Assembly: GCF_002214365.1 (NCBI RefSeq)
Contig: NZ_CP014854.1
Location: forward strand, 558,001-622,000
Direction: 5' to 3'
Length of the DNA: 64,000 nucleotides
Source of the DNA: Thermococcus celer Vu 13 = JCM 8558
GTDB lineage: Archaea; Methanobacteriota_B; Thermococci; Thermococcales; Thermococcaceae
Below are positions 42,451-59,579 of the stretch, in pieces (position 1 is the stretch's first letter; every line of letters starts with the position of its first letter). A program made the translations under genes and the position numbers. The notes below the pieces were generated by a model that was not told the DNA's origin, made no database searches, and worked only from the letters and a program-made list of their open reading frames with translations.

Positions 42451-42660
42451 TTGAAACCTTACCATGTGTTGTTGTTCCTCATGACGTGGTTCCTTGTGCT
42501 ATCCTTCCTGAGCCTGGTGGCCCTCAGACACGAGGCGGGCTCACCTCCCTTCGTGGCGGCGTTGACGACTTTTTCGCTGTCCCTCGGGGGAATGGCGTGG
42601 GCCTTAATAAAAATAAGAAAAAAGCTAATAGAGGAACTAATCCTGGAGGAGGGGCCTTAA
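42451..42660 (+). CDS. small two-helix membrane protein
   Basis: 69 residues: YHVLLFLMTWFLVLSFLSLV and FVAALTTFSLSLGGMAWALI are two membrane segments joined by a short loop, then a charged tail KIRKKLIEELILEEGP. No family recognised. A TTG at 42451 is the likely start since GAGGTGATG (42438-42446) is the ribosome binding site; TTG 42448 is the alternative. TATA-like GGTTTAATATCAC at about 42402-42414. The last 24 nt overlap the convergent celB gene. Confidence 0.6.
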   Translation: MKPYHVLLFLMTWFLVLSFLSLVALRHEAGSPPFVAALTTFSLSLGGMAWALIKIRKKLIEELILEEGP

Positions 42661-44103
42661 ATCGGACAGGTGGCTCAATTCCTCGGGAATCGCTTTTTGA
42701 GTTGCTATCTCTTTGAAGACGAGAGCGCTCGGCCTGATGTATCGCCTCTTGGACTCCCAATCGACCTTCAACAGTCCGAACTTCATCTGAAATCCTTTGG
42801 CCCACTCATAGTTGTCGGTTAGCGACCAGTGGAGGTATCCCCTGATGTCGGCGCCGGCCTCGATGGCGCTGTGAATTGCCCTGAGGTGGCTCACAAGGTA
42901 GTAGGATCTATACCTGTCTGCCTCATCGGCCATCCCGTTCTCGGTTATCATCATTGGAAGCCCGTACCTCTCGTTGAGCTCCCTGAGGAGTTTTTCCAGG
43001 CCCTCTGGATAGATTTCCCATCCGAAATCGCTGCAGGGCCTTCCGGATTTTGCATAGCCCTTTCTAACCCCTGAAAATCCGTATCCAGGTAGGGGTACTA
43101 CGTGTCCGTTTACTCTATCGAAGGCTATCCTTGAGTAGTAGTTCACTCCAAGCCAGTCAACCCTTCCCTTCAACTCTTCCCGTCCCTCGCCGACGGTTCT
43201 TGATTCACCAAAGTGAACTGAATCGACGAAGCTGTATAGCTCATTCTCCCGTATCTTCCTAACGTCTTCGGCAATTTCCTCGCTGAGGGGGTCGAGCCAG
43301 GTGTAGGCGTAGATTACCCCGACCGGCTTTTCTGAGAACTCCTTTATCGCATCGTACGCCCTTGCATGGGCGTATATGAGGTTGAGCTTTGCCTTCTCTA
43401 CCGCCTCAAAGCTAAGGTACCCCGGAGGAAATCCCGAGTTGGGCCGGCCGTAGCCGTTTTCGTAGACCACGTTCGGTTCGTTCATGGTGCTCCACGAATC
43501 CACGAAATCGTTTAGGTGGTAAGCCACGAAAGCCGCAAACTTCGCGAACTCGACGACGCTCCTATCGTCAAGCCACCCGCTTGGAGCCCTATCCGGTCCG
43601 AACCTGCGTACCTTTATCGGGTCGTGGAGCCACAGAGGAAGGGGCCAGTGGTAGAGGTTCAGGATGAAGACCTTTCCCCTCTCCCTCCAGTCCGAGTAGA
43701 TCCTTTTATAGTGCTCGAGGGCCTCCAAGTTTGCCCTCTTTTCAAGCTCTTCTATCGCGCTCTCCGGGACGTCAACGGATGTTATCCTGCCCTCCTCGTC
43801 CCTCTCCACGGTGACCCTCACGTCGAAGGTCGGCTCCGGAAAGATGCGCGCCCACTCTATTCCTCCCCTTATGGCGTCCATGCCGAGCTTCTCCGCCATG
43901 TCGTGGTCCTTGGAGTAAAGATGCCAGTAGGCGGGCCCGTTTTCCGGCAAATCTCCACTTACCAACCCCGTCATTATGTTCTCCATGTCATGAACCCAGA
44001 CCCACCAATCACTGTTGGGGACTTCGCTTCCTTTCAGGCCCATCTCGAACTGGAAACCCGACCAGGAGTAGCCGAACACAAAATCCCTGGGGAACTTATA
44101 CAT
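42637..44103 (-). CDS. celB: GH1 beta-glucosidase, CelB type
   Basis: 488 residues, closely following the Pyrococcus furiosus CelB sequence (MYKFPRDFVFGYSWSGFQFE, SDWWVWVHDMENI, GLVSGDLPENGPAYWHLY). Acid/base Glu in STMNEPNVVYENGYG, nucleophile Glu in PMMITENGMADEADRY. CelB hydrolyses cellobiose, laminaribiose and other beta-glucosides or galactosides in the cytoplasm; no signal peptide is seen. It is the last gene of the leftward ABC operon (3 nt after oppF), so it probably splits imported oligosaccharides. Confidence 0.95.
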   Translation of the reverse strand: MYKFPRDFVFGYSWSGFQFEMGLKGSEVPNSDWWVWVHDMENIMTGLVSGDLPENGPAYWHLYSKDHDMAEKLGMDAIRGGIEWARIFPEPTFDVRVTVERDEEGRITSVDVPESAIEELEKRANLEALEHYKRIYSDWRERGKVFILNLYHWPLPLWLHDPIKVRRFGPDRAPSGWLDDRSVVEFAKFAAFVAYHLNDFVDSWSTMNEPNVVYENGYGRPNSGFPPGYLSFEAVEKAKLNLIYAHARAYDAIKEFSEKPVGVIYAYTWLDPLSEEIAEDVRKIRENELYSFVDSVHFGESRTVGEGREELKGRVDWLGVNYYSRIAFDRVNGHVVPLPGYGFSGVRKGYAKSGRPCSDFGWEIYPEGLEKLLRELNERYGLPMMITENGMADEADRYRSYYLVSHLRAIHSAIEAGADIRGYLHWSLTDNYEWAKGFQMKFGLLKVDWESKRRYIRPSALVFKEIATQKAIPEELSHLSDLRPLLQD

Positions 44104-44106
44104 CTT

Positions 44107-58600: not shown

Positions 58601-58890
58601 ACGGCGAAATAGCGCTCGTCTTTAGCCCGACCCTTCCGGGGTGGCTTTTTGATGAGGAGGGCAGGGTGGCGTTTAACCTGTTCGGGAGGGTCAGGGTCGT
58701 TTATCACAACCCCTCCCGGAGGAACACCTGGGAGATGCCGCTCGAGGAGTCAACCGTGGTGATTGACACCGGGAAGGAGAAGATAACGGTGGAGGGCAAC
58801 AAAATCAAAGGAAAATACGCCGAGATGGTAAGATCCGGTGACGTTAGGAGGATCGATGTGTATTTCCCTGGAGAGGAGGTGGAAAAATGA
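55696..58890 (+). CDS. large GH94/GH161-type protein, probable beta-1,3-glucan phosphorylase
   Basis: 1064 residues, no signal peptide, so cytoplasmic. The barrel region has the phosphorylase-like stretch [20 protein letters not shown] and [20 protein letters not shown]. The N-terminal third is beta-rich ([40 protein letters not shown]), as in the supersandwich domain of GH94. The size exceeds GH94 (about 800) and fits GH161, the beta-1,3-oligoglucan phosphorylases described in Thermosipho and others. With laminarinase next door, phosphorolysis of imported laminari-oligosaccharides to glucose-1-phosphate is a good inference. ATG 55696 is preferred over GTG 55687. Confidence 0.75.
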   Translation: [1064 protein letters not shown]

Positions 58891-59579
58891 AGGTTGCCGT
58901 CGTTACCGGGGCCTCGAGGGGGATAGGTGAAGCCATAGCCCGGGCCCTGGCGGAGGAAGGCTACGCCCTCGCCATTGGGGCGAGGAGCGTTGAGAGACTC
59001 AAAAAACTGGCGGAAGAGCTTGGAGGGGAGGTCTTCTACCACCACTTAGACGTCTCCAGGCCGGAGAGCGTCGAAGAGTTCGCAAACAAAACCATAGAAC
59101 GCTTTGGGAAGGTGGACGTGGTCGTGGCGAACGCCGGGCTTGGGTACTTTGGCAGACTCGAGGAGCTCGGGGAAGAGGAGTTCCACGAGATGATAGAGGT
59201 CAACCTGCTCGGGATGTGGAGGACGATCAAAGCCTTTCTCAGGAACCTGAAGGAGACCAACGGGGTCGTTGTGGCGGTTACCTCCGACGTCTCTGCAAGG
59301 CTATTGCCCTACGGGGGCGGCTACACGGCCACCAAGTGGGCAGCCAGAGCCCTCGTAAAGACCTTCCAGATCGAGAACCCCGACGTAAGGTTCTTTGAGT
59401 TGAGGCCCGGGGCAGTGGATACCTACTTCGGCGGAAGCAAACCGGGTAAGCCAAAGGAGAAGGGCTTCCTCAAGCCGGAGGAGGTTGCCGAGGCCGTGAA
59501 GTACCTCCTGAGGCTTCCAAAGGACGTAAGAGTCGAGGAGCTCATGCTCCGTTCGATGTATCAGAAGCCGGAGTACTGA
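58887..59579 (+). CDS. short-chain dehydrogenase/reductase
   Basis: 230 residues, classical SDR. NAD(P) motif VTGASRGIGEAIARALAEEG, VVVANAGLGYFG, catalytic Ser (TSDVSARLLP), YTATKWAARALVKTF (YxxxK as Tyr-Thr-Ala-Thr-Lys) and the RPGAVDT turn. P. furiosus has an SDR alcohol dehydrogenase gene (adhA) between celB and lamA, so an SDR in this setting is conserved. The reaction may reduce a sugar-derived carbonyl or alcohol. Overlaps the phosphorylase gene by ATGA; last gene of the operon. Confidence 0.92.
   Translation: MKVAVVTGASRGIGEAIARALAEEGYALAIGARSVERLKKLAEELGGEVFYHHLDVSRPESVEEFANKTIERFGKVDVVVANAGLGYFGRLEELGEEEFHEMIEVNLLGMWRTIKAFLRNLKETNGVVVAVTSDVSARLLPYGGGYTATKWAARALVKTFQIENPDVRFFELRPGAVDTYFGGSKPGKPKEKGFLKPEEVAEAVKYLLRLPKDVRVEELMLRSMYQKPEY

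Follow-up and report, generated by a model that had tools for sequence, protein, structure and literature searches.

Gene content and organization of the locus

The analyzed window, a 64,000-nucleotide stretch of Thermococcus celer DNA, contains two divergent operons at positions 42637-59579. The genes that an earlier note had described there, including an Opp-type importer and two GH1 enzymes, are all present at their coordinates and on their strands, with the families claimed. The left operon (minus strand) encodes the importer, with both of its ATPases, and a CelB-like GH1 enzyme. The right operon (plus strand) encodes secreted glucanases, the second GH1 enzyme, a VapBC pair, a GH16 laminarinase, a GH161 phosphorylase, and a short-chain dehydrogenase (SDR).

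42256..59743, no strand: entire island, taken as the insertion with respect to the empty site, from comparison of its flanks with six relatives
42637..44103, minus: CelB-like GH1 beta-glucosidase, predicted cytoplasmic (818 bits to P. furiosus beta-glucosidase 3apg; NCBIfam BgaS, 826 bits)
44107..44934, minus: OppF-type ATPase (orthologues in other islands 77-88% identical)
44918..45934, minus: OppD-type ATPase (orthologues in other islands 72-76% identical)
45939..46787, minus: OppC-type permease (orthologues 81-84% identical)
46797..47807, minus: OppB-type permease (orthologues 86-88% identical)
47823..49880, minus: OppA-type solute-binding protein (PF00496; signal peptide and C-terminal membrane anchor)
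49881..50022, no strand: divergent promoter region, from direct reading (TATA-like AAATATTTATATG near 49983-49995, and a GGTGAT ribosome-binding site upstream of the ATG at 50023, the likely GH12 start)
50002..50901, plus: GH12-type endoglucanase, C-terminally truncated (assigned from the fold of the intact orthologue; likely start 50023)
51032..52522, plus: GH50-like secreted lipoprotein beta-glucanase (E 3e-50 to GH50 agarase 4bq2)
52519..54027, plus: second GH1 beta-glucosidase, predicted cytoplasmic (479 bits to TsBGL 7f1n, PMC8517440; NCBIfam, 514 bits)
54024..54230, plus: VapB-type antitoxin, with a TTG start overlapping the GH1 stop (weak PF02697 match)
54243..54716, plus: VapC-type PIN-domain toxin (PF01850 above cut-off)
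54719..55690, plus: GH16 laminarinase lipoprotein (470 bits to P. furiosus endo-beta-1,3-glucanase 2vy0)
55687..58890, plus: GH161 beta-1,3-glucan phosphorylase, predicted, cytoplasmic (the alignment with relatives begins at the ATG at 55696)
58887..59579, plus: SDR (PF00106)

All reading frames of the island are open except that of GH12. In the right operon, four stop/start overlaps of 4 bp are found, with the overlapping frames intact; because of these overlaps, and because four other genomes retain the same genes, the arrangement is not due to chance. The island is a horizontally acquired insertion of 17.5 kb, with a GC content of 52% against a background of 57-58%. The two genes on either side of it are neighbours in six relatives, in which the flank up to 42249-42255 meets the flank from 59749-59786. 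A search of the window and direct reading revealed neither flanking repeats nor an integrase at the island ends, and no insertion mechanism is therefore assigned. The divergent promoter region was also inspected for an operator shared between species, and none was found: the three GTGG[CT]TAC copies of the window are absent from the relatives. This motif was thus dropped as a conserved operator, and no regulator is proposed.

The GH161 phosphorylase

The protein encoded at 55687-58890, described earlier as a probable GH161 enzyme, belongs to this family, as settled by sequence, fold, and conserved residues. With a family profile, the E-values are 0 for GH161, 1.5e-33 for GH149, and 1.8e-7 for GH94, and the alignment to a solved GH161 chain (E 6.6e-271) covers residues 14-1059. 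A GH149 identity was rejected, the NCBIfam GH149 model scoring 91.7 bits against a cut-off of 1150, and no Pfam model matched the phosphorylase. The predicted structure (mean pLDDT of 81, lower in the active-site loops) superimposes on 9gy9 and 9qqk with TM-scores of 0.88-0.89, compared to 0.73 for GH149 and 0.67 for the GH94 laminaribiose phosphorylase. The structure 9qqk was solved with a beta-1,3 gluco-oligosaccharide.

Catalytic, donor, and phosphate residues were mapped from the THA_1941/TaCDP assignments (PMC5501786). The catalytic acid D653, the donor-subsite residues W651, R411, D412, E875, and N876, and the phosphate-binding R391, H882, and T948-G949 are all kept, as is F869. D527 (in GYWCDHW) was considered as the catalytic acid and dropped, since the THA_1941 mapping points to D653. 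One phosphate-site position is Thr in 6/6 aligned archaeal copies and Ser in 10/10 bacterial ones. The characterized PapP and TaCDP phosphorolyse laminaritriose, but neither laminaribiose nor cellotriose (PMC6484121); by analogy with these two enzymes, that of T. celer may likewise be limited to chains of at least three glucoses.

Secreted hydrolases, importer, and accessory genes

The glucanases had been described as anchored, which holds for the GH16 and GH50-like lipoproteins and probably not for GH12. The GH16 enzyme carries the GEIDIMEF catalytic motif and an N-terminal lipobox, and is nearest to the P. furiosus laminarinase LamA. The GH50-like protein keeps both catalytic glutamates, E230 and E392 aligning with E534 and E695 of Aga50D, and it probably belongs to subfamily GH50_3. 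Its hyperthermophilic GH50_3 relative, Fsa16295Glu, has beta-1,3-endoglucanase activity and acts only weakly as an agarase; the authors who studied it group the Thermococcus GH50s with it (PMC11079163). As for GH12, the intact orthologue adopts the GH12 fold (TM-score of 0.8 to T. maritima Cel12A, normalized by target). In the window copy, the domain stops ~20 residues short and the C-terminal strand is lost, leaving a broken GH12 with an incomplete beta-sandwich, and the CGP-CTERM-like membrane tail (GGGICGPGIIVALAVVPLLLRRRR, ~50880-51001) sits in the +1 frame. Because the domain end is missing and the tail is out of frame, the product is probably neither anchored nor complete.

The best solved relatives of OppA are 2o7i and 4jsd (E ~1e-152), with a wide gap to 4pft, which comes third (E 5e-62), and its ligands are probably beta-glucan oligosaccharides. 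Judged from their sequences, VapB and VapC are a toxin-antitoxin pair inside the right operon. VapC occurs in 5/5 complete islands, and VapB orthologues, 54-66% identical, lie at the same place in all four others. The SDR gene follows that of GH161 in all islands and, in a broken form, in a Staphylothermus MAG.

Distribution and origin

The same cassette is present in 4 of 93 other Thermococcaceae genomes, at other genomic sites and with gene set and order conserved. Among 94 Thermococcaceae genomes, intact GH161, GH50, and GH16 are found together, each in an identical set of 5. In genome G076, the island is partly deleted. The archaeal GH161 sequences form a single clade within thermophilic bacterial GH161, the Desulfurococcaceae copies being nested among those of Thermococcaceae. 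No haloarchaeal GH161 was found among the 80 closest loci retrieved, and the only plasmid record with a GH161 relative was from Vibrio fortis (39%). The T. celer enzyme is the most diverged archaeal copy, with a branch of 0.35 against 0.03-0.25 and relative-rate counts of 87-110 against 59-74, although of 181 positions that are otherwise invariant only two are changed in it and 179 are kept.

It is reasonably probable that the island is a mobile cassette for archaeal hydrolysis and phosphorolysis of beta-1,3-glucan. Its GH161 would have come once from thermophilic bacteria, spread in Thermococcaceae at different sites, and then passed to Desulfurococcaceae, with VapBC as its own maintenance module in the glucan operon.

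Comparison with known systems

Gene set and order, conserved at non-orthologous sites, mark the locus as an island of the T. sibiricus type. Among the four other carriers is a genome, L091, that we take to be T. sibiricus. At 36-88% identity and with unchanged gene order, it shares OppA/B/C, GH12, GH50-like, GH1, VapBC, GH16, GH161, and SDR, but has four GH12 domains instead of one truncated GH12, and the window island lies in different surroundings. The P. furiosus celB-adhA-adhB-lamA locus likewise comprises, together with the cbt transporter, a CelB-like GH1, an SDR, and a LamA-like GH16. It is hydrolytic, whereas the T. celer island joins transporter and enzymes and adds GH161, GH50, and VapBC.

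According to later papers (PMC4574382, PMC6981617), Mardanov et al. reported the ‘saccharolytic gene island’ of T. sibiricus in 2009; it has been tied to cellulose, laminarin, and agar (PMC4574382). The P. furiosus CbtA is an Opp-type beta-glucoside importer (PMC11212667). Bacterial GH161 loci, such as those of Paenibacillus polymyxa (PapP) and Bacillus weihaiensis (laminarin locus), combine GH161 with GH1 and an ABC transporter, and that of B. weihaiensis also has a GH16 (PMC6484121). Most bacterial GH161 loci lack the transporter ATPases, both of which are present in the T. celer island; the latter also differs by its archaeal secreted lipoproteins and the absence of GH94. The haloarchaea HArc-curdl5-1/7 grow on curdlan, pachyman, and laminarin, with a GH161 beta-1,3-glucan phosphorylase inferred from their genomes (PMC9726719), and have GH81 and GH3 where T. 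celer has GH16, GH50, and GH1. The combination of hydrolysis and phosphorolysis put forward in the earlier note is still the best reading, but its novelty was overstated, given the T. sibiricus island type, the standard bacterial layout, and the GH161 already proposed for haloarchaea. Its statement that no archaeal pathway of this kind has been established experimentally agrees with the open-access literature searched.

Proposed pathway and alternative readings

The locus is likely to be a self-contained beta-1,3(/1,4)-glucan utilization island, whose logic (hydrolysis, import, and phosphorolysis) is the one usual in bacterial GH161 loci. The lipid-anchored GH16 and GH50 endo-glucanases, plus GH12 where intact, would cut laminarin-type glucans outside the cell, and the Opp-family importer would bring in the oligosaccharides. 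Cytoplasmic GH161 would phosphorolyse chains of at least three glucoses to alpha-glucose-1-phosphate, down to laminaribiose, and the two GH1 enzymes would hydrolyze the rest (laminaribiose, mixed-linked and cello-disaccharides) to glucose. Glucose-1-phosphate would enter the modified glycolysis via phosphoglucomutase, bypassing ADP-glucokinase for those glucoses; the genome provides for both routes, encoding two ADP-PFK/GK proteins as well as three strong homologues of PGM/PMM. We infer the substrate, import specificity, expression, and energy gain of the island, whereas its genes, families, residues, fold, synteny, insertion, and clade were computed. As Thermococcus sp. 2319x1 grows on cellulose derivatives but fails to do so on laminarin (PMC4853606), the substrates of one member of the genus cannot be taken to hold for the others.

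It is unlikely that the island mainly serves beta-1,4 or mixed-linkage glucans (cellulose, lichenan, barley glucan), with the phosphorylase acting on cellodextrins or mixed oligosaccharides. GH12 enzymes are typically beta-1,4-endoglucanases, the same-family PDB entry 9h8v is named ‘Cellobiose phosphorylase’, the original report on TaCDP called it a cellodextrin phosphorylase (PMC5501786), and cellulose is among the substrates linked to the T. sibiricus island. Nevertheless, TaCDP proved beta-1,3-specific when re-assayed (PMC6484121), the laminarinase and the GH50_3-like enzyme indicate beta-1,3 linkages, and GH12 is the sole damaged hydrolase here.

The divergence of GH161 does count against the proposed pathway, although few invariant positions are changed, and so does the damage to GH12, given which part of the island may be decaying. 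That the whole is a decaying passenger, held by the VapBC pair and no longer useful to its host, is less probable still: the truncated GH12, the faster GH161 branch, retention of VapBC in all complete islands, and the partial deletion in G076 are consistent with it, but the remaining frames are open, the overlaps intact, and the invariant GH161 residues nearly all kept. An agar-utilizing island, suggested by the beta-agarases that are the nearest solved proteins of the GH50-like protein and by the agar link of the T. sibiricus island, is improbable given the activity of Fsa16295Glu and the placement of the Thermococcus GH50s beside it. Lastly, GH161 could build an intracellular beta-1,3-glucan store from glucose-1-phosphate, the reaction being reversible and PapP and TaCDP building such chains in vitro (PMC6484121), but this is very improbable, as its gene shares an operon with secreted glucanases, lies next to the divergent operon of the importer, and has come and gone along with them.

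Implications

Because Thermococcales spend ADP to prime glucose and gain little from glycolysis, phosphorolysis would spare them one priming bond for each glucose. If the proposed beta-1,3-glucan pathway is true, it would extend, by a phosphorylase branch, the hydrolytic pathway that textbooks give for this order and for laminarin, a storage sugar of algae, and its heat-stable GH161 would be useful for beta-1,3-glucan synthesis. The island would also be a clearly marked example of the transfer of a complete polysaccharide pathway among bacteria, Thermococcaceae, and Desulfurococcaceae. Overall, Archaea would thereby gain their first demonstrated route of beta-glucan phosphorolysis, the counterpart of their maltodextrin phosphorylase route.

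Gene Content and Operon Layout

The genome of Thermococcus celer is a single contig of 1,866,819 bp. Open reading frames, family matches, and solved relatives bear out the gene list of the earlier note for the glucan island, which comprises two divergent operons.

Operons of the island (window positions 42637-59579)
Left operon, minus strand: OppA-B-C-D-F, then a CelB-like GH1
Right operon, plus strand: GH12, GH50-like, GH1, VapB, VapC, GH16, GH161, and SDR

Overlaps of 4 bp at the GH50/GH1, GH1/VapB, GH16/GH161, and GH161/SDR junctions support a single transcription unit for the right operon. 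The VapB/VapC pair (54024-54716), which lies in the middle of this glucan operon and is retained in all five complete islands, may be a maintenance module of the cassette. The divergent promoter region (49881-50002) holds three copies of GTGG[CT]TAC that are not present in relatives. A small frame at 42448-42660 (LLKPYHVLLFLMTWFLVLSFLSL...), encoding a small hydrophobic membrane protein, overlaps the end of the GH1 gene on the opposite strand.

The GH161 Phosphorylase

The earlier note had proposed a probable GH161 beta-1,3-glucan phosphorylase, and the comparison with GH94 and GH149 agrees: with a profile from 16 GH161 sequences, the E-value is 0 for GH161, versus 1.5e-33 for GH149 and 1.8e-7 for GH94 laminaribiose phosphorylase (LBP). 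Two solved GH161 chains match 55687-58890 over almost the full length. The predicted model superposes with a TM of 0.89 on 9gy9 (a bacterial enzyme, described as a GH161 beta-1,3-glucan phosphorylase) and 0.88 on 9qqk (GH161 with a beta-1,3 gluco-oligosaccharide), against 0.73 for GH149 and 0.67 for GH94 LBP; as its active-site loops are of low confidence, the model served only to judge the fold. Residues were assigned through the published mapping of THA_1941/TaCDP, a GH161 enzyme, to cellobiose phosphorylase (PMC5501786). The acid D653 is present, and all donor residues (W651, R411, D412, F869, E875, N876) and phosphate ligands (R391, H882, T948-G949) are kept.

In assays of two GH161 enzymes, bacterial PapP and thermophilic TaCDP (the latter re-assayed), laminaritriose was phosphorolysed, but neither laminaribiose nor cellotriose was (PMC6484121), so GH1 enzymes would be needed in the same cluster. 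From this family specificity, hydrolysis and phosphorolysis are predicted to operate together.

Each glucose freed as glucose-1-phosphate would bypass one ADP-glucokinase step. The genome encodes two PF04587 proteins, expected to be the ADP-glucokinase and the ADP-phosphofructokinase, along with three strong PGM/PMM homologues, which together would provide glycolytic entry for both glucose and glucose-1-phosphate.

Hydrolases and Solute-Binding Protein

The nearest solved relative of the island GH16 is the P. furiosus endo-beta-1,3-glucanase. For the solute-binding protein, 2o7i/4jsd is much nearer than every other solved chain; we take it to be the T. maritima cello-/laminari-oligosaccharide binding protein, its structure record being named only 'oligopeptide ABC transporter'. 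Cellobiose and laminarin are given as ligands of P. furiosus CbtA (PMC11212667).

In the GH50-like protein (51032-52522), E230 aligns exactly with the Gln that occupies the acid position in the variant entry 4bq4, and E392 falls within the nucleophile motif in the alignment to GH50. A characterised hyperthermophilic GH50_3 enzyme acts as a beta-1,3-endoglucanase and only weakly as an agarase; the GH50s of Thermococcus and Thermosphaera were grouped beside it (PMC11079163).

The GH12 gene is damaged at 50860-51001: the domain end is lost and the protein stops at SYSGGSY, where relatives read on as ...SYSGSEGTAFNYGWILHDARVL...CGPAAIIGLAIVPLLLRKRR. In the +1 frame, the sequence still encodes a CGP-CTERM-like membrane tail. 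Tandem GH12 domains occur in loci of relatives (L090:4311-7541, L088:5991-8156, L091:12912-16277), and a single protein of 1077 residues can hold as many as three.

Insertion and Distribution in Thermococcaceae

The flanks (left of 42.25 kb and right of 59.75-59.79 kb) adjoin in six compared genomes (G071, G070, G014, G026, G019, G020), the last three of which carry the island at other sites; in G022, the right flank alone lies within the stretch compared. GC content is 51.7% in the island versus 57.5 and 58.3% in the flanks. Neither repeats nor a recombinase was found at the island ends in the window. Directly left of the insertion, 39409-40494 encodes a membrane-anchored MarR/TrmB-like winged-helix protein, assigned to the host rather than the island since its block is present in empty-site relatives.

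Intact GH161, GH50, and GH16 occur in the same 5 of 94 Thermococcaceae genomes, and GH161 fragments in two more. Genome G078, which carries the same island, is apparently T. sibiricus MM 739. In G076, the island middle is deleted, joining OppA (from residue 174) directly to GH161 (from residue 404; L092:14187-14190); the surroundings of this deletion hold a transposase-like ORF and two ORFs of shared sequence (L092:2032-2484, 17090-17509). In G019 (L089:1-12226), the Opp-GH1 operon is located past the SDR end of the enzyme operon, not divergent from the GH12 end, which suggests that the two halves can rearrange.

Probable Origin and Spread of GH161

In the tree, archaeal GH161 sequences form one clade (support 100/100), which groups at 100/99 with its sisters from Caloramator, Thermobrachium, and a Thermotogales MAG. 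Nested inside the Thermococcaceae sequences, beside T. sibiricus, are those of Staphylothermus, another Thermoprotei MAG, and Thermosphaera aggregans (G191). On this tree, the simplest history would be a single bacterial donor, spread within Thermococcaceae, and then transfer to Desulfurococcaceae. GH161 matches were found in 6 of 229 genomes of the class of Desulfurococcaceae (one of the six trivial); outside Thermococcaceae, the window's phylum gave no match in 21 genomes.

GH161 is split over two frames in Thermosphaera sp. 3507 (G192) and, likewise by frameshift, in another Thermoprotei genome (L135:14257-17417, L137:10035-13234); the phosphorylase thus seems readily lost. The Staphylothermus MAG has an island-like OppABC divergent from GH50 (L124:1-5048), and a GH161-SDR pair on another contig.

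Relation to Known Systems

This island type is already known as the T. sibiricus 'saccharolytic gene island', as described in passages of papers citing Mardanov 2009 (PMC4574382, PMC6981617), and bacterial GH161 loci follow the same logic (PMC6484121). For haloarchaea that grow on curdlan, a beta-1,3-glucan phosphorylase has already been proposed, though not assayed (PMC9726719). In the open-access literature, we found no paper tying GH161 to Thermococcales or assaying an archaeal GH161. The island offers a good, testable biochemical prediction, and a modestly surprising one.
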